Shown: positions 17,710 to 30,966 of the stretch, one piece after another | Position numbering within the stretch: the stretch's first letter is position 1 | Layout: each line of letters begins with the position of its first letter | From: an uncultured Candidatus Poseidoniales archaeon | GTDB taxonomy: Archaea > Thermoplasmatota > Poseidoniia > Poseidoniales > Poseidoniaceae | Direction: 5' to 3' | NCBI GenBank assembly: GCA_902520595.1 | Contig: CABYOM010000006.1 | Span: 1-47,265, forward strand | Length of the DNA: 47,265 bases | Notes under the pieces: model-generated | Seen by the model: only the letters and a program-made list of their open reading frames with translations | Database searches by the model: none | Told to the model about the DNA's origin: nothing | Made by a program: the position numbers and the translations under genes

Positions 17710-18393
17710 ATGCACCGAGCGTGGGTCTACATTTTGACCATCGCTCTTGGATTGTGGTTTTCTGCAACGGCATGTAATGGACTTATTCCAGACCATTATG
17801 CAGAAGTTCCAGTTAATCTTTGGTGTTGGGGGCTTTTTGCTTGGCTTTATCGCAACGGTTCGAAAAAGCAACGCATCGAGATGTTAACGGTCGTTGCTAT
17901 AGCCACTCCAATGGAACTGTTTTTCAGTGAAGTTTGGTTGATTTATGAATATCAGCGTGACCTCATGCCACTGTTTGTTCCTGCAGGTCATTATTTCCTT
18001 TTTGACTTGGGTCGAATGGCAGCTGATAAGATGAAAGAATCTTGGGCCATGCCTTTGCTGATGCCCTTTGTGCCATTGGTGATGTACGGTGCTTGGACTG
18101 GCGGAGATACTTCAGCAGTGTTCCTTTTGGTACTTGTTCTGGCATTCACAAAGTGGGGTCCACAACCGCGTTTGTATTCTGCGATGGCTTGGGCTGCACT
18201 GGCTATGGAATTATGGGGCACATACCTGGCAAACTGGACTTGGGCAAATGAGGTTCCATGGACAGGTCTGACAGCGTGGAATCCGCCTTTGCTTGTTGGT
18301 TCCTTTTACTGCTTAGGTGACCTTTTGGTAAACATGGCAGTCGTCAAGTTTGAAGGGAAGGACCGATTGGGAGTACTGCATGACCACCTCTGA
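17710..18393 (+). CDS. multi-TM membrane protein, unknown function
   Basis: Several hydrophobic segments; MHRAWVYILTIALGLWFSATACNG...; start trimmed from 17680. Confidence 0.75.
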   Translation: MHRAWVYILTIALGLWFSATACNGLIPDHYAEVPVNLWCWGLFAWLYRNGSKKQRIEMLTVVAIATPMELFFSEVWLIYEYQRDLMPLFVPAGHYFLFDLGRMAADKMKESWAMPLLMPFVPLVMYGAWTGGDTSAVFLLVLVLAFTKWGPQPRLYSAMAWAALAMELWGTYLANWTWANEVPWTGLTAWNPPLLVGSFYCLGDLLVNMAVVKFEGKDRLGVLHDHL

Positions 18394-18712
18394 GGAGTTG
18401 CGCAAACGTCGTGAAAAGGAGGCTGTACGCATCCGTACCTCTCTCAATCGACTTCGCGGAGAACAGCGTGCATCTATCAAAGGCGGTGAATCTGCAGTCG
18501 CATTTGTTGAAGAGCGTTCATGCATCGGTTGTGACCAGTGCACCATCGTCTGTGATGATATGGCAATCGAAGTGTACAAGGTACCTATGGCCAGCCCTCT
18601 TATCAAAGTTGAATCGAACCAAAAGGCGAAGATTTTGCGTGCAGATTGCACTGGATGTCGTTTGTGTGTTCTCGCATGCCCAACCGACGCAATTTCGATG
18701 ATCGATCGTTGA
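18380..18712 (+). CDS. 2x[4Fe-4S] ferredoxin-like protein with basic N-terminal extension
   Basis: CIGCDQCTIVC and CTGCRLCVLACP; start (MTTSEELRKRREKEA) overlaps the previous stop. Confidence 0.9.
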   Translation: MTTSEELRKRREKEAVRIRTSLNRLRGEQRASIKGGESAVAFVEERSCIGCDQCTIVCDDMAIEVYKVPMASPLIKVESNQKAKILRADCTGCRLCVLACPTDAISMIDR

Positions 18713-18721
18713 GGTGAGAAT

Positions 18722-19012
18722 ATGTCAAAAAAAGATAAACAAGACACTGCTCAACGATTTGGTGGCGAGTTTGGACCGTATCGGAAAGAAGGAACACCCG
18801 GAGTCTCTCTCTCAACATTCAAGACGCTTGTGTGGACCTCAAACATCGGTGGGATGATTTTAGTTGTCATTGCCCTTGAGATGCTGTTTGTACGGCAAAT
18901 GTTTGGCTGGGGTCTTGCATCACTCATCTTGGGTGTACTCATCGCTTTATTCCCGTCAAACTATGAGATTGTGGGTATGGAAGAAGGGCAAGCACCTGCA
19001 CAAGATGACTGA
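18722..19012 (+). CDS. small two-TM membrane protein
   Basis: MSKKDKQDTAQRFGGEFGPYRKEG...TLVWTSNIGGMILVVIALEMLFVRQMFGWGLASLILGVLIALFPSNYEIVG. Confidence 0.7.
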   Translation: MSKKDKQDTAQRFGGEFGPYRKEGTPGVSLSTFKTLVWTSNIGGMILVVIALEMLFVRQMFGWGLASLILGVLIALFPSNYEIVGMEEGQAPAQDD

Positions 19013-19799: not shown

Positions 19800-22628
19800 T
19801 CAAGCCTCAACTTCTGTTAGAGGAGTTGATTCAGTAGCCGCCTTTGCCTTCTTCGCTTCAACCTGGCGAGCAAGGAACGATACGACATCCAGAATCTCAA
19901 TGTCTTCGTAGCGCTCATCGCCTTCAAATTTGAGACACTCAAAGTGCGATACACACTTTGGACATGATGTTAGCATCGTATCTGCTCCAGTCGACCGAAT
20001 CTCTTCCATGCGGGACACACGCAGAGAGCGTGCATTCTCGTTACATGACATCATACTCGAGACACCACAACACATTGCGTCTTCGCCATGGTGTTCCATT
20101 TCAACAATCTCGACACCGTCAACGCCAGCAATCAGTTGTCTTGGTTCTTCATAGATACCCATTTGGCGTCCAAGTCGACATGGGTCGTGGTAGGTGACGG
20201 TTGTTTCTTCTTCGGCTTTGAGGTTCATGTCAAAACCATTTTCGATGAGGAATTCGGTTGTATGCATCACTTTGACGCCTTCAAGTTCATAGTCACGGGC
20301 AAAAGTTCGGAAACATTCAGCGCAAGAAGATACGAGAGTATCAATACCCGATTGCTCGATTTTCTTCTGATTGTAAGCCTTGAGTTTGTCAAAGACTTCA
20401 TCCAAGCCTTGCCACTTTTGGTCGTGGCCACAGCACTTCAAGAAGTCACGTCCAAGATAGGATACGTCCATTTCCATTTCATCAAAGAGTGTGAATGCAG
20501 ATGTCGTGGCGTCACCAAGATTCATTTCACCTTCATTGACATGAGAGAAGACCATTTCCTGATCAAGGTAATCAACACAGCCAGGGTAATATCCAATACT
20601 CGAGGAGAGTGGGTAGTCTTCGATGGAGATGAAGTCACTGTTTGCAGCTTCTTCTGCTTCTGCAGCAAGAACGGCTTGCAAGACAGTGTGTGCAATTTCC
20701 GCTTGGGGTCCTCCGACAATCAACGAACGTCGAATGTCAATGTATGAATCGTAGTCTACAAGTTGCGGACAAGCGTTTGTACAGGCGGTGCATGTTAGAC
20801 ACGAATAAAGAGGAACGCCGTCATCTTCATTGTTCCAAGAGTTGTAAATGATGTTGAGTTTATCTCCACCGTTAAACAATCGAACTGGACAAGCATCGTC
20901 ACAAAGGTCACAGCCGTAACACTTGTTCATTTCAAACTCATATCCTCGTCCCATTGAGCGTAACAGAATAAACACCATTGCTCCAAAGGTCAGACAAGGT
21001 ATGAACATTGAATAGGTGAGTTTTGCATCCAATGCCTTTGGATTTGTGTGGTAGGTTGGATTCTCAATTGCGGCGAATTGACTTCCACCTAGGGCCATGT
21101 CTTCTGCGCTGGAAAGGTTCACGGTTGTTCCAGCAAGGGTTGCAGGTGCATCGGCGTTCCAAACCAAGAGTGGTTGGAATGAGGCGATACCGAAAGAGGT
21201 TTCAGTTTGAATACTGTTGTTGAGTGCAAGTGCACCGCTTACAGTGACAGAGTAAGTGTAATCATAGTCACCAACAGGTAACTCAATTGTTGCACCAGCA
21301 CAATTATCGAAAGAGGAAACAACAGAACCTTTGCTGTTGGTAACCGTCAGTGTTGAAGAAATCATACTCGCTGTTGCGATGTCGTTAATCTTGCGCTCAG
21401 AGGAACGGTATTCACAACTCAGGTCGGTAGTGAGTGTCTCAACGGTTTCATGGTGGCCATCAGGGAAGAGCGAGATGTCTTCAGTAACAGTAAATGAACC
21501 AGATGTTTCCCATCCTTCTCCACCGTTGAAGGTCGTTGTGCCTGCTGCAGCATTGATTCCATTTTCGGCATCTTGATGTCCATTGGCGTCATTGAAATCG
21601 GTGATGATATATCGAGCTGGTTGGTAAATCACCCAATCGAGCCACGCAGTTGTGGGCACTGTTTCAGATTCAGACCAACCCCGATCGTCGGTGAATTCAT
21701 TGGTAGCATGAACGTGCACATCGGTTGGTTGCGTACGCATTGCTTCTAATTCGGGATAGTAATCGTGAGTCAAACCTTTGATAGTGAGCAATCCGCCTTG
21801 GTCCCAAAATCCATCATCATACGTATCCCAAGTTGCCACAGTTCCAGCAGTTGCAATCAGAAGCGTTCCAACAAGGATTTGCTTTGCATGACTCGGTTTG
21901 AATCCTGCACCCCAGGCTTTCACCATGAGTCCGCGAGCTAAGAAATAGATACATATCCAAGCTAGAACGCCTGTCATCACCCACGGGATCGAGTTGAAGG
22001 CATCAGCCACCCAAGGTTCTCTCGTTCCGCACAACAGGTCACCATGGCTATCCAACTTACAATAATCTGAACGATTTTTCGCATAGAGTTCAAGGAAAAT
22101 ATTGATCGAAAATACGGAAATGAACCAAATGTGAGCCAGATAAACGGCACCTGCAGTTGCGAACCAAGGATCTTCAACAGGTCGCTTTTCACGGCCGCCA
22201 AGGAATGGAGGCAGTGCGAGGATACTCACGGGGATACCAGTGAGTGCTGCGCCCCACCATGCAGCGTTCCAAGGGAACACAGGTTGGCCAACGATTTCAC
22301 CAATGAAACCGGTTGGCACTGTGAATTGAGGGAGATATTCACCCCAACGCAGGTATCCGTATGAAAACAACACATACCAATCAGGGAAAACGAACCCTGC
22401 CTGAGCATATGGGTCAGCAGCACTGTGGAGTGGAGGTGGAATGAGCCAAGCGTAAAACAGCAGAACTGCAGCCATGAAGGCGAGCAGAATAGTATCTCTC
22501 AAAACTTCATGCGGCCAGAATCCATGCCCTGTACGCGTACGCTTTCGTTTACCTGCAACCTCTTGTAACTGTTCTTTCTCTTCCATGTAGGAAGTAGCAA
22601 CACGCCCGAAATTCTCGATTAGTCCCAT
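19800..22628 (-). CDS. fusion: cytochrome b C-terminal/subunit IV-like TM region, extracytoplasmic insertion, two 4Fe-4S motifs, two CCG (HdrD/GlpC-like) domains
   Basis: N-term TMs; TM FIPCLTFGAMVFILLRSMGRGYEFEM; CYGCDLCDDACP and CLTCTACTNACP; CCG set 1 (YYPGCVDY...FLKCCGHDQ...CAEC) and set 2 (YHDPCRLGRQ...MCCGVSSMMSC...CPKC). Start trimmed to MGLIENFG at 22628. Confidence 0.88.
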   Translation of the reverse strand: MGLIENFGRVATSYMEEKEQLQEVAGKRKRTRTGHGFWPHEVLRDTILLAFMAAVLLFYAWLIPPPLHSAADPYAQAGFVFPDWYVLFSYGYLRWGEYLPQFTVPTGFIGEIVGQPVFPWNAAWWGAALTGIPVSILALPPFLGGREKRPVEDPWFATAGAVYLAHIWFISVFSINIFLELYAKNRSDYCKLDSHGDLLCGTREPWVADAFNSIPWVMTGVLAWICIYFLARGLMVKAWGAGFKPSHAKQILVGTLLIATAGTVATWDTYDDGFWDQGGLLTIKGLTHDYYPELEAMRTQPTDVHVHATNEFTDDRGWSESETVPTTAWLDWVIYQPARYIITDFNDANGHQDAENGINAAAGTTTFNGGEGWETSGSFTVTEDISLFPDGHHETVETLTTDLSCEYRSSERKINDIATASMISSTLTVTNSKGSVVSSFDNCAGATIELPVGDYDYTYSVTVSGALALNNSIQTETSFGIASFQPLLVWNADAPATLAGTTVNLSSAEDMALGGSQFAAIENPTYHTNPKALDAKLTYSMFIPCLTFGAMVFILLRSMGRGYEFEMNKCYGCDLCDDACPVRLFNGGDKLNIIYNSWNNEDDGVPLYSCLTCTACTNACPQLVDYDSYIDIRRSLIVGGPQAEIAHTVLQAVLAAEAEEAANSDFISIEDYPLSSSIGYYPGCVDYLDQEMVFSHVNEGEMNLGDATTSAFTLFDEMEMDVSYLGRDFLKCCGHDQKWQGLDEVFDKLKAYNQKKIEQSGIDTLVSSCAECFRTFARDYELEGVKVMHTTEFLIENGFDMNLKAEEETTVTYHDPCRLGRQMGIYEEPRQLIAGVDGVEIVEMEHHGEDAMCCGVSSMMSCNENARSLRVSRMEEIRSTGADTMLTSCPKCVSHFECLKFEGDERYEDIEILDVVSFLARQVEAKKAKAATESTPLTEVEA

Positions 22629-22644
22629 GTTATACCCTCCAATA

Positions 22645-23514
22645 TCAATGCGGTTCAGCAATGCCTTGCACCCAGACAATAAATAAGTGGATAATGATCA
22701 GTGTCGTCACGATAACCGGAAGGATGAACACGTGAATGAAATACATTCGAGTGACTGTTCGAGCGGTAAGTGATGAGCCGCTAAAGAGGAGGGTTGCGAT
22801 ATATTTGCCAACCAAGGGGCTTGAGTTCGCAAGATTGATGCCAATAACGGCAGCCCCATAGGCAAGAGAATCCCAAGGCAAGAGATATCCTGAATACCCG
22901 AAAACGATGGTGAGTGCCATCAAAGCTACTCCAATCAACCAGTTTAATTCTCGAGGGTTGCGGTATGCGCCGGTGAAGTAGACGCGACACATGTGCAGGA
23001 ATACACTTGCGACCATGAAGTGCGTACACCAGTGATGGACAGCACGAATAATGTAGCCGAATGGGAGTTCAGTCATGATGAATTGCATACTTGCGTAAGC
23101 AGGCGAAGGGTCTCCTTCTCCTCCAGGAACGTAGTATATGCCAAGGACTGTTCCTGTAATGACTAAGATAATGAAGGAAAGGAATGAGATTCCGCCGAGG
23201 CAATACAAAGGATACCAATACCAAATGATTCGTAGTTTATACTTCTCTGCGTGAGAAAGAGGCATCTGACGGTGCATGTTGTAATATGCGCCTTTCGACA
23301 TGTTCCAGTAGTCTTGCAGACGGAAACGGGTGTCTAACCATGAGAATACCCACAGGAACAATCGTTCAGCAAAACCCATCTTTCCAGTTGATTCAACTGC
23401 TCGAAGAATTTCACGGCGTGGGGTGTCGCTGCTCTCTTGGCGCAGAGTGAGTGCAACAAGTACAACCACAAAGGCGATGAAGAACCAAAGAATCCAAAAC
23501 ATTGTTGTCATCAT
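22645..23514 (-). CDS. cytochrome b/b6 N-terminal subunit
   Basis: LGIYYVPGGEGDPSPAYASMQFIMTELPFGYIIRAVHHWCTHFMVASVFLHMCRVYFTGAYRNPRELNWLIG... and RMYFIHVFILPVIVTTLIIIHLF (paired heme-ligand His). Confidence 0.93.
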   Translation of the reverse strand: MMTTMFWILWFFIAFVVVLVALTLRQESSDTPRREILRAVESTGKMGFAERLFLWVFSWLDTRFRLQDYWNMSKGAYYNMHRQMPLSHAEKYKLRIIWYWYPLYCLGGISFLSFIILVITGTVLGIYYVPGGEGDPSPAYASMQFIMTELPFGYIIRAVHHWCTHFMVASVFLHMCRVYFTGAYRNPRELNWLIGVALMALTIVFGYSGYLLPWDSLAYGAAVIGINLANSSPLVGKYIATLLFSGSSLTARTVTRMYFIHVFILPVIVTTLIIIHLFIVWVQGIAEPH

Positions 23515-23521
23515 AATCACC

Positions 23522-24367
23522 TCAGTCGCAATACGTATACCAGTCAAGATAGTCCGTTATGCCCTCAATAACATCTCCATTCAATACAATCGGGATAATA
23601 GGGAGTCCGACTGGTGCGGGTCCACCAGCCTTTCGGATGCCAGCATAGTTAAATGTGGCCCCATTTGAACGGTTTCGGTTTGTGTTCATCTCAAGCACTG
23701 TTGGGTCAAATCGTGACGAATGGCAGATACAGAACAGTTTCGTGCCGCCATCATCACCGCCCCCGGGCGTCCATGAATCGTCAGTGAATGAGTTTGAAAC
23801 AAGTTGCCAACCAGGGATGCAGCACAAATGGGTGCAGCGGCCAAAAATCATGACCAAGTTATCCGATGGCAGCAGTCGAGGGTCGGTATCACTCAAATCT
23901 TCAAAGTGTCCGATCGTTTTACCGGTTTCATCAACACCTTCTGTGTATTGGAACCGGGCCTTACCGTTTGAAAGCGGAGTCGATGCATATTTTGAATGGT
24001 TGACGTAGGTGACAACAACAGGAACGCCGTTCCATATTCCTGCAGCACCTGAGGTTTCGGTGTTTGATTTTGCAGCTTCATCAACGAAATCTTGGCGAGT
24101 CATCACCTGTTCATGCTTTGCTCCATACCATGCGGAGTCTTCTCGTCCCTTCGCCCAGAACTTGACACCAAGTTCTCCCTCGGTGGAACCGCCTGGTGGC
24201 AGTAGAATGGCTGCAAAACCAAGCACGCCGAGTGATGCGGCTAGTACACCAGTAGCGGTATTGAACCCGTAGCGCAAGAATTGCCGACGATTGACAGTCG
24301 CTGATGTCGATGCATCATTGGAGCCTCCGGAAGAAGGAGCCGGTTTGAGGTCATATTCACGTGCCAT
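23522..24367 (-). CDS. Rieske [2Fe-2S] protein with Tat-like N-terminus
   Basis: NRRQFLRYGFNTATGVLAASLGVLGFAAILLPP; Rieske boxes CTHLCCIPGW and CICHSSRFDP. Confidence 0.93.
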   Translation of the reverse strand: MAREYDLKPAPSSGGSNDASTSATVNRRQFLRYGFNTATGVLAASLGVLGFAAILLPPGGSTEGELGVKFWAKGREDSAWYGAKHEQVMTRQDFVDEAAKSNTETSGAAGIWNGVPVVVTYVNHSKYASTPLSNGKARFQYTEGVDETGKTIGHFEDLSDTDPRLLPSDNLVMIFGRCTHLCCIPGWQLVSNSFTDDSWTPGGGDDGGTKLFCICHSSRFDPTVLEMNTNRNRSNGATFNYAGIRKAGGPAPVGLPIIPIVLNGDVIEGITDYLDWYTYCD

Positions 24368-24373
24368 GTCCTA

Positions 24374-24820
24374 TCACCACTTGTACTCCTTCCAGTCCTT
24401 CTGGTGCTCAGGTACGAATTTATTCATTCCATGCTTAACAATGATTGTATCTGGTAGGACGAACTTGAGATAAGCCATTCCCATGAGGCAAAGTGTCACG
24501 AGCATCATTGCAAGGTGGTAAGCAAGTTGTTGCTGATCCCAGCCTTTTGCAAGGCCGTAAATCATTGAGAATACCCAGAAACACGACCAGAATAAGCCCC
24601 AAGAAAAGAATATGATGATGAGATTTGAAGCGCCGGATGGTGCCAATGAGGCGCTAACAATCGTTCCAGATTCTGCGATGTTGAATACACCATGGTCGAT
24701 GGCAGATTGCATCTGGTCTTCGGTGAGCGAAGCATCTTCCAATGCTTCTCGGGCATCTTCAACACTGACTTTGCCGCTGGCAACTTTCCGAAGGAGTGTG
24801 GTTATTGTGTCATCCATCAT
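24374..24820 (-). CDS. membrane protein of the bc-like cluster, unknown function
   Basis: Helical N-terminus, two TM segments (IIIFFSWGLFWSCFWVFSMIYGL; LAYHLAMMLVTLCLMGMAYLKFVL); tightly spaced with flanking genes. Confidence 0.75.
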   Translation of the reverse strand: MMDDTITTLLRKVASGKVSVEDAREALEDASLTEDQMQSAIDHGVFNIAESGTIVSASLAPSGASNLIIIFFSWGLFWSCFWVFSMIYGLAKGWDQQQLAYHLAMMLVTLCLMGMAYLKFVLPDTIIVKHGMNKFVPEHQKDWKEYKW

Positions 24821-25644
24821 TGATCACCTCGTCGCATGAGTTTGTAACGCAGCCGCAACTGATTTGTTCGACCAGTGTAGGATGTTGAGAAACTGTAACG
24901 CAGCATGAGTCCAGCAAAAATGATCACGAGAATCACAGCGCCGAATCCAAGAAGTCCAAGCCAATGCGCTCGCAACTTTGCACCCATGTGATGTAAATCA
25001 ACTCCATGGTGGTCAGGTTCAGGAGGACTGACATTTCCATCACCTGCAAACAGAGTTCGTGTTCCAAGCGCGCTGGTTGAGTCGCTGCCTTCTTGCATTG
25101 AGAACAGTAATTGATTCCATTTGTCTTCTTCTCCGCCGCCGTTATTCAACTGATCGCCGTTTACTGAATTACCTGTAATCCAGAAGTCAACGCTGCCTGT
25201 TCCTGCCTCGGGGGCTTGCCAAGAGAGCGTCCACATCCGATCAGCCTTACTGGCAGATGCCTCGGTGTGAGTAAGCGTTGTGACGTCCTCGTCCCAGTTT
25301 TGCAAACCGTCACCGGAAAGAGCGCCAGCACTGATGCGCATGGCAAATCCTGCGGTATAGGTTCCAGTAGCAGCGGGTCCGCCGATGATTTGAAGCGTCA
25401 TTTCATAGGTCTCGCCAGCAATCCATCCGTAGGGGACATCGTCGAGAATAATCTGGACAGAATTATCAGCCGCGCCATTGTGGCAAAGACAGCCTCCTTT
25501 AGCTACGTCGTCTATGGTTTCTCCGGCGTTGTCTTGGGCTCCTCCAACGCCGCTGTGAAGCGAGGAAACAAGGCCGGGTACAAGCAGCAAAACCGCAAGA
25601 ACGAGGATTACTCCCGAACGTGTAGAAAATGTGCTTACGCGCAT
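24817..25644 (-). CDS. secreted/membrane-anchored choice-of-anchor V / cytochrome-like protein with CxCH motif
   Basis: Signal peptide, GGCLCHNG, beta-rich domain (YEMTLQIIGGPAATGTYTAGFAMRISAG...RMWTLSWQAPEAGTGSVDFWITGNSVNGD), C-terminal TM. Overlaps the next gene by 4 bp. Confidence 0.7.
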   Translation of the reverse strand: MRVSTFSTRSGVILVLAVLLLVPGLVSSLHSGVGGAQDNAGETIDDVAKGGCLCHNGAADNSVQIILDDVPYGWIAGETYEMTLQIIGGPAATGTYTAGFAMRISAGALSGDGLQNWDEDVTTLTHTEASASKADRMWTLSWQAPEAGTGSVDFWITGNSVNGDQLNNGGGEEDKWNQLLFSMQEGSDSTSALGTRTLFAGDGNVSPPEPDHHGVDLHHMGAKLRAHWLGLLGFGAVILVIIFAGLMLRYSFSTSYTGRTNQLRLRYKLMRRGDQ

Positions 25645-25863
25645 TGCATCACCCAATTGTTTGAACCCACTCGCAAGTGCCCCTTAAACATTACCAGTGT
25701 GAACCATCAATAACACCTTCGCAGTGCCCCGTTTTTTTAGGCGAAAAAAGTTCGTAAAAACCGTTGGTAATCCACTCATTTTCCTCTCCAAAACTGCGTA
25801 ATTCCGATGCTGGAGATGGGAGGCTTCTTGAAGGTCCACCCTGAGCGCGACAACGAGACCACG

Positions 25864-26206: not shown

Positions 26207-27124
26207 ATGGAAGCGTCTCACATCCTCATTGCTGGAGTGGGTGGCGTTGGTTGTTCTTGGGCAAAGGGGGCGCATGCTCGATGCGAAGATTTTGCAGACA
26301 TCTGTTTGGTAGATGCTGATGATTCGAGTTTTGAAAAGAATGCCTCAGCTCATTTGTTACGGTTGGGGCACGCACTTGATTCAATGGGTTGTGCAGCGCT
26401 CCCTCCGTTAGCAGAACAACGAATGCGGGGTTTGTCTGCACTTGCAAGAACCGTCCTTGAACCCGTAGAGTTGGTTCTTTTGCTTGTTGGCCTTGGTGGT
26501 GGCACTGGAACAGGTGCGGCGCATGAATTTGCCCGTCAAGCACGACAATCTGGTGCAATTGTTGTCGCTGTTGCTGCTCTGCCTTTCGACGTTCAAGAAA
26601 CCCGTGCAACCATCGCCGAAGAGGGCTTAATGCGACTCGAGAAAAATGCTCATGTAACTGTCCGGCTTTCGCTTGAACGACTCGCTCGTCAGGCAAGAGA
26701 GCGTGGAACTGCATGGCAAATGGGAGCCGAATGGGTCGAGGATCTCATCGAGGGTCTGGTTCGTACATTGATGAGAATGGGACTTATTAACTTGGATTTG
26801 ATGGATTTACGAGCAATTGTTGAAAAAGATGGAGAAGCGACACTGCTTGTCGGTATTGGGAAACCGGATGACCCTGAAGGGATTCTTGAATCTGCCATGA
26901 TGGCGCCACTCGCTGAATTGGACGTCGGTGGTGCTCGAGGATGTTTAATTCAGGTTGAAGGCGGTGTTGGGATGACTATAGGGCAACTTGATGAAGTTGC
27001 CAACATGTTTACAGAAGCATTAGATCCGAATGCGCAAGTAATTCTTGGTGCTCGTGTAAGCGAAGATCTCGAAGATACAATTCGAGTCGTTACACTTCTT
27101 TCAGGAATTCATTCAGAATCTTAG
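26207..27124 (+). CDS. divergent FtsZ/tubulin-superfamily GTPase
   Basis: HILIAGVGGVGCSWAKGA, tubulin signature GLGGGTGTGAAHEFA, T7-like GLINLDLMDLRAIVEKDGEATLLVGIG, C-terminal domain ending IRVVTLLSGI. Confidence 0.85.
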   Translation: MEASHILIAGVGGVGCSWAKGAHARCEDFADICLVDADDSSFEKNASAHLLRLGHALDSMGCAALPPLAEQRMRGLSALARTVLEPVELVLLLVGLGGGTGTGAAHEFARQARQSGAIVVAVAALPFDVQETRATIAEEGLMRLEKNAHVTVRLSLERLARQARERGTAWQMGAEWVEDLIEGLVRTLMRMGLINLDLMDLRAIVEKDGEATLLVGIGKPDDPEGILESAMMAPLAELDVGGARGCLIQVEGGVGMTIGQLDEVANMFTEALDPNAQVILGARVSEDLEDTIRVVTLLSGIHSES

Positions 27125-28987: not shown

Positions 28988-29488
28988 ATGGCTGGAGGCG
29001 GAAGTGCACCTGCGATGAAGATGAGTGATGTGTTCATTCTTCTGGGTGTGACTTTTTTGCTTGGCGGTCTTTTCATTCACGGATTAGTCTCACCTGTAGG
29101 AGTTGATTCTGAATCTGAAGCTTATACCAGCGGAGCGTCATTACTGAAAGGTGATTCAATGCAATTTACGATTGAGGCTGTCGACCAATCTTCATTCAGC
29201 ATCGAGATCTTCGATGAGGGGGGGTCGGTCCTTTTGACTGAATCTTTTGACCTTGCCAGTGGAGACTCGGAGTCGATTGATTTTGAAGCTGATGAGAAAG
29301 GATTCTACTCGTTTTCCATTGAATTTTCAGATGGCTCTGGTGATGTTCTGGTCGATGTGGACCGCAAACTTTTGATCGATTTCATCATCTATCCACTCGG
29401 TGCGGTATGTATCGTGTTTGGTATTGCTAAGAGGAAAGATGAGCAAGGGAAAGAAGCACTCGATGCCGTGTTGGAACCAAGCGATTAA
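28988..29488 (+). CDS. membrane protein: two TM helices flanking an extracytoplasmic beta domain
   Basis: MAGGGSAPAMKMSDVFILLGVTFLLGGLFIHGLVSP...FIIYPLGAVCIVFGIAKRKDEQ. Confidence 0.65.
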   Translation: MAGGGSAPAMKMSDVFILLGVTFLLGGLFIHGLVSPVGVDSESEAYTSGASLLKGDSMQFTIEAVDQSSFSIEIFDEGGSVLLTESFDLASGDSESIDFEADEKGFYSFSIEFSDGSGDVLVDVDRKLLIDFIIYPLGAVCIVFGIAKRKDEQGKEALDAVLEPSD

Positions 29489-30966
29489 TACGTATCGTAA
29501 TTTGACCAAATTACGTGTTCTCCATCTTCGATAGTGTGCAACTTTTTTGGAGCCTCAAGAAGCGTCATTTTACCTTCTGTATCAATCGAGTTAAATTTCA
29601 TCTCAGTGTCTCTATAGAAAGGCTTTCCTAAGACCTCTAGTGTAGTTCCAAAAACCTCTGAATAATATTCTAAAAAACTCTTCTTTTTAACATCATTTAT
29701 TCCTGATTTTTGTTCAAACCAAGAGGCGACAGATGCTTGTATTGAACGTTCAAATTCTGGCAGGGTAATACCCTCATTTATCTCTTCGAGTGTTGCAATG
29801 GAATACTCGTTTTTATGGAGTTCTGTAGATGAGACATTACACCCAATCCCAAGGATTGCCCGAGTTACTTTTCCTCGACTCGAACTTTCAACCAAAACGC
29901 CGCCTACTTTTCGCAATTCACCTTTGACCAGTAGCAAGGCATCATTCGGCCATTTGAGCACGACACTCGCATTTTCCGGGCACGAGGAATTGATGGCTTC
30001 ATGTAATGCAAGTCCTCCTTGAAGTTGAAGCAATCCCGGACTTGAAATTGAACTGCTGTCATGAATAACCCAAGATCCTGCAAAAGCTACATCTTCATGG
30101 GACCATGGTCTGCCGCGACGACCATGGCCTGCAAGTTGGCGGCCTGCTTGTAGAAAACTCCCTTTTGGATGCATTGAGTTGAGTAAAAAAGTGTTGGTTG
30201 AATCGATTTCGGTTTCATACAATTTCGCTTGTTGCTCAAACGGTCGCCAAAGAGCAAAAACTTCGAGGCATTCCCCATCTTCTAAGCGTTGAACAGAGAC
30301 GCTACGAATTGCAAAACCTTCTCGTATACACGTCGTTCGAATTCTCCTGCTTCGTTCATTTCGAGAAACGAGAAGAAAAACGGTCCCGCCGTCGGCTAAA
30401 ATCGTCGTAGTATTCAGTTGCATGAGTAAGCGAGAAACAAGACCTTTTTGATCGGTATCTAAGAGCGCTGCTTCCTCAAGGGGTCCCAAATGAGGCGAGT
30501 CCTTAGCAGGAACCAAATAAGGTAGATTCCAAATGATGACATCATGTCGTTTATCTCCCGCCCATTGACTGACTTCTCCGTCAATAAGTGGACCTGGTCC
30601 GCCTTCATTAACCGTGATTTTAAGGTCGTTTTTTAGAGACGAATTACGACTGCTCGCAACTGCAAAAGGATTGATGTCACACGCAGTTACTGAAAAACCA
30701 ATTTGTGCAGAAAAAAGAGAAATTGCGCCTGAGCCACAACCGATCTCGAGTAGGTTTTTTCCTCTGGGTTGATCGTAGTTGTGAAGCACGCTTGCAAGTA
30801 AGTCAGTATCTTCTCGAGGCGGATAGACAGTGGGAGGAATTGTAAGGTGAATTTCTCGATTTTGAGGCGTGGTCCAAATTCGGTCCTCAGCAACCCTGTC
30901 GAGCCGCTCAATTTCTTGTTCGGCGTCGAGAGAGCCGAAGTATTCCTCCTCTACCATTTGGTCCAT
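29485..30966 (-). CDS. fusion: HemK/PrmC-like class I methyltransferase plus biotin-protein ligase (BirA)
   Basis: N-half VYPPREDTDLLASVL...LLEIGCGSGAISLFSAQIGFSVTACDINPFAV...IIWNLPYLVP; C-half IDSTNTFLL...AGRQLAGHGRRGRPWSHEDVAFAGSW...LKWPNDALLLVKGELRKVGGVLVES...AILGIGCNV. Confidence 0.9.
   Translation of the reverse strand: MDQMVEEEYFGSLDAEQEIERLDRVAEDRIWTTPQNREIHLTIPPTVYPPREDTDLLASVLHNYDQPRGKNLLEIGCGSGAISLFSAQIGFSVTACDINPFAVASSRNSSLKNDLKITVNEGGPGPLIDGEVSQWAGDKRHDVIIWNLPYLVPAKDSPHLGPLEEAALLDTDQKGLVSRLLMQLNTTTILADGGTVFLLVSRNERSRRIRTTCIREGFAIRSVSVQRLEDGECLEVFALWRPFEQQAKLYETEIDSTNTFLLNSMHPKGSFLQAGRQLAGHGRRGRPWSHEDVAFAGSWVIHDSSSISSPGLLQLQGGLALHEAINSSCPENASVVLKWPNDALLLVKGELRKVGGVLVESSSRGKVTRAILGIGCNVSSTELHKNEYSIATLEEINEGITLPEFERSIQASVASWFEQKSGINDVKKKSFLEYYSEVFGTTLEVLGKPFYRDTEMKFNSIDTEGKMTLLEAPKKLHTIEDGEHVIWSNYDTY

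Follow-up and report, generated by a model that had tools for sequence, protein, structure and literature searches.

According to our analysis, an open reading frame of an uncultured Candidatus Poseidoniales archaeon (GCA_902520595.1, contig CABYOM010000006.1) attaches two 4Fe-4S motifs and a pair of CCG domains to the C-terminal half of a split cytochrome b, and the complex that carries this fusion is, judging by gene content in nearly every genome checked, the sole cytochrome b complex of Poseidoniales aerobes. We propose that complex III of this order may be a b6-type Rieske/cytochrome b complex with an Hdr-derived electron port on the n-side, which would be fed by ferredoxin and would deliver electrons to heme ci/bH; we give this reading an even chance. 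The window, i.e., the whole stretch of DNA that was analyzed, comprises 47,265 nucleotides, and all coordinates refer to it unless a locus is named.

Architecture and topology of the fusion and its gene cluster

An earlier account of Poseidoniales (PMC6336850) gave their complex III as cytochrome b and Rieske only, with no canonical bc1. In the window, five genes lie on the same strand in the order choice-of-anchor V, DUF7318-like, Rieske, cytochrome b6-type and fusion, with gaps of -26 to +16 bp. This ORF order confirmed the placement of the fusion gene by the sequence-only reading, directly downstream of the genes for the Rieske protein and the cytochrome b N-terminal subunit. The features are:

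24817-25656 (-), choice-of-anchor V protein, first in the cluster, conserved CxCH (domain match, motif)
24374-24820 (-), small membrane subunit, co-conserved (weak DUF7318 match)
23522-24367 (-), Rieske protein with a twin-arginine start and CTHLCC...CICHSS (weak TIGR01416 match, E 8e-9; cluster-binding boxes)
22645-23547 (-), cytochrome b6-type subunit (PF00033, E 6e-42; best PDB match cytochrome b6, 1vf5_A, E 8.5e-44)
19800-22628 (-), fusion gene, 942 aa: cytochrome b C-terminal/subunit IV-like transmembrane helices (TMs), ectodomain, 2x[4Fe-4S] and two CCG domains
21879-22628 (-), subunit IV-like membrane part, residues 1-250 (hydropathy; PF00032 on homologs; weak b6f subunit IV match)
21018-21878 (-), extra TM (251-269) and p-side ectodomain, residues 251-537 (hydropathy, alignment, predicted structure)
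20961-21017 (-), last predicted TM, residues 538-556, followed by the basic RSMGRGYE on the n-side (hydropathy)
20766-20921 (-), two 4Fe-4S motifs, residues 570-621 (570-581 and 610-621; Fer4_8 and Fer4_9 above cut-off)
20313-20579 (-), CCG domain 1, residues 684-772, Cys 684/732/733/769/772 (complete Hdr-type set)
19953-20180 (-), CCG domain 2, residues 817-892, Cys 817/853/854/889/892 (PF02754, alignment)

The fusion ORF starts with ATG at 22628, and an alternative in-frame TTG lies further upstream at 22679. Its previously claimed composition, a cytochrome b C-terminal half followed by two 4Fe-4S and two CCG units, was borne out by domain search and homologs. The CCG (PF02754, two matches, E 3e-22) and Fer4 profiles fired on the protein itself; Cytochrom_B_C (PF00032) was silent on it, the sequence being too diverged, and the phmmer match to b6f subunit IV was weak (E 0.27). 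The similarity to the cytochrome b C-terminal half holds via homologs: fused proteins of two sister-class families, L116 (E 7.8e-10) and L147 (E 1.4e-4), pass PF00032 and can be aligned to residues ~13-180 of the fusion protein. The PEWY-type Qo motif, here PDWY (residues 82-85), was found in homologs of every lineage.

Six TMs were predicted in the fusion protein, four of them by hydropathy in the subunit IV-like part (46-64, 127-145, 161-179 and 213-231), followed by 251-269 and 538-556. Homologs without the ectodomain appear, by inspection, to have four TMs ahead of the Fe-S part. In either layout the module ends up on the same side as the subunit IV N-terminus, the n-side. The Fe-S module is thus predicted to face the cytoplasm, as had been proposed from the basic residues after the last TM. 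A p-side location is unlikely, given the TM count and the absence of a twin-arginine motif before the last TM. Among the lineages read, the extra TM pair and the ectodomain occur only in Poseidoniales. AlphaFold predicted the ectodomain as a beta-sandwich (pLDDT mostly about 65-89 across residues 300-520), and its C405 and C443 are invariant; the full-length model was poor (pLDDT 53), and the C-terminal module modeled separately was better (pTM 0.67).

The partner subunits retain their expected ligands. In the cytochrome b6-type subunit, the heme-ligand His residues are invariant in 70/70 aligned homologs, and so is C116, which aligns with YCLGG of cytochrome b6; by this alignment, the Poseidoniales subunit keeps the heme-ci cysteine. 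Both Rieske boxes (CTHLCC/CPHLCC with CICHSS or CPCHLS) were present in 115 of 116 matching ORFs, while PF00355 gave no match to the Rieske protein of the window, which has an additional Cys in box I (CTHLCC) and a long spacer separating the boxes. The CxCH of the choice-of-anchor V protein varies across homologs (CLCH, CTCH, CSCH or CNCH). No cytochrome c1 or cytochrome f was recognized in the gene cluster. The heme-ci cysteine, the p-side ectodomain and the ferredoxin cassette described below were absent from the sequence-only reading. Elsewhere in the window, a conserved neighbor diverging from the cluster (26207-27124) has, by eye, an FtsZ/tubulin-family look (GGGTGTG loop), and 29485-30966 encodes an apparent fusion of an N-terminal methyltransferase (NLPY motif) with a biotin-protein ligase-like part, also by eye.

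Conservation of the fusion and origin of its Fe-S module

A scan of species genomes yielded 249 relatives, from which 80 loci with 71-97% identity were kept, and a phylum-wide sample of Thermoplasmatota comprised 392 genomes, 127 of them Poseidoniales. The survey of homologs showed that the fusion is conserved, with matches at E < 1e-200 in 124 of the 127 Poseidoniales genomes (counted by hand from the match table). All eight Fer4 cysteines are invariant (110/110), as are all ten CCG ligand cysteines (105-106 aligned sequences). Within the protein, conservation is highest in the Fe-S module: mean pairwise identity was 96% for Fer4, 90% for CCG1, 86% for CCG2, 84% for the cytochrome b part and 59% for the ectodomain, with synonymous sites near saturation. 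Because of this presence across genomes, the identity of the 80 loci and the invariant cysteines, the fusion is neither chance nor chimera. A chimeric assembly was also ruled out by 249 independent contig stretches, including AH-287-P07 and AH-273-F07, whose names suggest single-cell genomes. A plasmid-borne fusion was likewise rejected, since tblastn of plasmids matched the Fe-S/CCG part alone and never the fusion. PF00033 marked a single gene in nearly every Poseidoniales panel genome; one genome of the sister family f2 (3% contaminated) has two.

Homologs were present in two Thermoplasmatota classes. In f3, a family of the same class as Poseidoniales that is probably MGIII, the cytochrome b-Fer4 and CCG parts are separate genes; these halves adjoin, with an overlap of 4 bp, and are followed by genes for a polyferredoxin and a membrane protein. 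The N-half of this polyferredoxin matches the Sulfolobus Zn-ferredoxin domain (E 9e-28), a domain not found in Poseidoniales. In two genomes of the sister-class family f25, a gene for an HdrA-Fer4-FlpD protein (NCBIfam HdrA2, 2e-17; PDB HdrA, 3e-16; FlpD, 1.4e-17) lies directly downstream of the fusion with a 4-bp overlap, and in f22, also of the sister class, the fusion is followed by a polyferredoxin; the loci inspected in Poseidoniales, the MGIII-like class and f22 showed no HdrA/HdrE partner. The cytochrome b6 genes of f22 and f25 (L147:8086-9948, L148:788-3613) have, by eye, a large N-terminal extension with repeated Ig-like p-side domains. In a tree of the Fe-S/CCG region, all modules linked to cytochrome b group together (100/99) and are separate from EtfD and other Thermoplasmatota CCG proteins, with long-branch warnings for f22 and f25. 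Since the CCG part is an overlapping separate gene in f3, and HdrA-Fer4-FlpD is directly downstream in f25, the Fe-S module is, on this genomic evidence, Hdr-derived (HdrCB/HdrD-like).

The best PDB match of the fusion protein is EtfD (9ojn, E 1.6e-23 by sequence), and a fold search with the predicted structure gave EtfD (4.7e-14) and HdrB (7.5e-8). In EtfD, Thr539 and His583 give rise to a linear [3Fe-4S] cluster and to a noncubane cluster with full coordination (PMC13083937). At these positions the fusion carries Cys733 and Glu771, which corresponds to the Hdr-type set. An EtfD identity was ruled out by these residues, the tree and a separate paralog. The latter, an EtfD-like protein, has 681 aa, shows the signature C[ST]G and CPHC and is encoded in the same genome (G000:C24 = L144:6021-8066, minus strand). 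It shares 30% identity over its length with the third gene of an EtfBA operon on a haloarchaeal plasmid, and its f3 counterpart has an ETF alpha gene close by. Near-complete Poseidoniaceae genomes encode two CCG proteins, the fusion and EtfD; in f2 genomes a third protein, about 288 aa long, has a single CCG domain (e.g., G045:C6:9961-10185, G149:C6:23260-23487).

Possible roles of the Fe-S module

Two further features of the window lie beside the fusion gene:

18350-18712 (+), 2[4Fe-4S] ferredoxin, weak RnfB-like match (profile match, linkage)
18722-19012 (+), 96-aa small membrane protein after the ferredoxin (homolog adjoins the ferredoxin in the MGIII-like class)

Both genes adjoin the fusion in most Poseidoniaceae, usually convergently, and in f2 the ferredoxin gene is downstream of the fusion and codirectional. 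In 10 of the 11 Poseidoniales genomes of the panel, no more than about 1.5 kb separates the ferredoxin gene from the fusion. An orphan RnfB has been reported in MGII; given the weak RnfB score and the linkage to the complex, the ferredoxin of the window may be this protein. NuoF (PF01512) was absent from every Poseidoniia panel genome, which conflicts with the "canonical NADH dehydrogenase" given in PMC6336850. Most of these genomes have NuoD and nearly all have a POR gamma domain, so that ferredoxin is likely a major carrier. A complex I without NADH module and a ferredoxin-dependent oxidation of 2-oxoacids make ferredoxin a plausible partner of the Fe-S module.

The proposed ferredoxin-fed port would start from 2-oxoacid:ferredoxin oxidoreductases as the source of reduced ferredoxin, which would pass electrons via the linked ferredoxin subunit to the CCG/4Fe-4S clusters and from there to heme ci/bH at the Qi site, where quinone would be reduced; meanwhile, quinol would be oxidized at Qo in the usual way, with electrons going to Rieske and oxidase. 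We infer the direction and the partner of the port; sequence by itself does not show which way the electrons run. In cyclic photosynthetic electron flow, a ferredoxin-to-b6f route with n-side electron entry is a proposal, and the port would be its fused respiratory counterpart. The single cytochrome b, the invariant ligands, the high conservation of the Fe-S module, the predicted n-side topology, the ferredoxin linkage, the grouping in one clade and the separate EtfD for ETF may be counted in favor of the port, as may the Zn-ferredoxin domain of the MGIII-like class, the HdrA-Fer4-FlpD gene of f25, the Nuo and POR gene content and the fold matches. Against it, a non-pumping transfer from ferredoxin to quinone would waste energy if the complex I without NADH module also oxidizes ferredoxin; moreover, the ferredoxin cassette of Poseidoniaceae is mostly convergent and, in one genome (G015), 14 kb distant, and the Zn-ferredoxin domain of the MGIII-like locus has no Poseidoniales equivalent among our matches.

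The main rival of the ferredoxin-fed port reverses the flow: after bifurcation at Qo, the low-potential electron would leave via bL and bH through the Fe-S/CCG module and reduce ferredoxin or a similar acceptor in the cytoplasm, with the passage of the high-potential electron to O2 as the driving force. A Qo-bifurcation output has been proposed for anammox Rieske/cytochrome b complexes with NAD(P) oxidoreductase modules, whose layout of b6-like cytochrome b, SUIV-like subunit and n-side Fe-S module is shared (PMC12954380), and the linked HdrA-FlpD flavoprotein of f25 fits such an output. However, in a sole complex III each turnover would be in competition with reduction at Qi, it is not obvious why an aerobic heterotroph should need low-potential electrons, and the Poseidoniia version has no linked flavoprotein; we consider this output rather unlikely. 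The wider statement, that quinone-based bifurcation pushes electrons into the Hdr-type module and to ferredoxin with O2 as the driver, or that the module is a two-way hub between cytoplasm and quinone pool, also seems unlikely, though slightly less so.

The sequence-only reading had suggested that a bc-like complex is connected to a redox module in the cytoplasm, which the architecture and placement support, and had named thiol/disulfide, lactate or glycerol-3-P oxidoreductases as partners. Thiol/disulfide chemistry, in which catalytic noncubane clusters of the Hdr type would pass electrons back or forth between quinone and a (di)thiol of the cytoplasm, agrees with the HdrB fold match and with the fusion protein, in which both five-Cys CCG sets are complete and the EtfD T539 and H583 substitutions are lacking. 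This part of the suggestion is weakened by the MGIII-like homologs, whose CCG1 has only four Cys (CSG, or CAEG for CAEC), while Hdr chemistry uses both clusters; an electron relay is therefore favored over disulfide chemistry. No thiol enzyme is linked, and in an aerobe O2 sensitivity would be expected of catalytic Hdr clusters; we regard the thiol/disulfide role as improbable. Direct entry from a flavoprotein dehydrogenase (ETF, lactate, glycerol-3-P or another FAD enzyme) on the CCG module would resemble the known CCG proteins EtfD, GlpC, LutA, GlcF and LdhH, which take electrons from flavoproteins, and EtfD is the best PDB match. Yet a separate EtfD exists, with ETF nearby in MGIII-like genomes and on the haloarchaeal plasmid, no flavoprotein gene is linked in Poseidoniia, and no LutB, GlpA/B or GlcD partner genes were recognized in the neighborhoods read. 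The lactate or glycerol-3-P partner thus found no backing, with no linked gene and EtfD as the only other CCG protein per near-complete Poseidoniaceae genome, and flavoprotein entry in general seems to us hardly probable. Finally, the complex may be an ordinary complex III whose Fe-S appendage has a structural or regulatory function and takes no part in catalytic electron flow. As the sole cytochrome b complex, it must at least carry out normal quinol oxidation, but the higher conservation of the module than of the cytochrome b part, the invariance of all ligands and the redox-active Hdr ancestry make a mere appendage very improbable.

Significance and comparison with known systems

Each cellular complex III of these abundant planktonic archaea would carry a cytoplasmic Hdr-related Fe-S module, and cytosolic electrons may join or exit the respiratory chain directly at complex III. 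A search of the open-access literature found no description of such a cytochrome b/Hdr-module architecture. The nearest likeness in layout is seen in the anammox complexes Kuste4569-4574 and Kustd1480-1485 (PMC12954380), in which the n-side Fe-S module, next to a b6-like cytochrome b and an SUIV-like subunit, is proposed to exchange electrons with the b/c hemes. Those complexes have a separate NAD(P) oxidoreductase and a p-side multiheme cytochrome c, whereas the Poseidoniales version has its HdrCB-like CCG module fused to subunit IV and carries no FAD/NAD domain in cis. In mycobacterial EtfD (PDB 9ojn; PMC13083937), too, two 4Fe-4S and two CCG domains come after a membrane part. That part is, however, a five-TM b-heme unit, and EtfD has T539/H583, whereas the fusion system has a membrane part of cytochrome b6 and subunit IV, a Rieske protein, and the residues Cys733 and Glu771. 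HdrD and HdrCB share the 4Fe-4S and two five-Cys CCG domains, and HdrA-FlpD is adjacent in f25, but HdrD is normally paired with HdrE, HdrCB is soluble, and for the fusion there is no sign of CoM-S-S-CoB as substrate. Cytochrome b6f, finally, has the same split cytochrome b (b6 plus subunit IV), heme-ci Cys and Rieske; the Poseidoniales cluster differs in having no recognized cytochrome f and in the covalent fusion of the n-side electron partner. If electrons do pass between the module and heme ci/bH, this fused system would make the debated n-side feeding of the heme-ci site in b6-type complexes directly testable.
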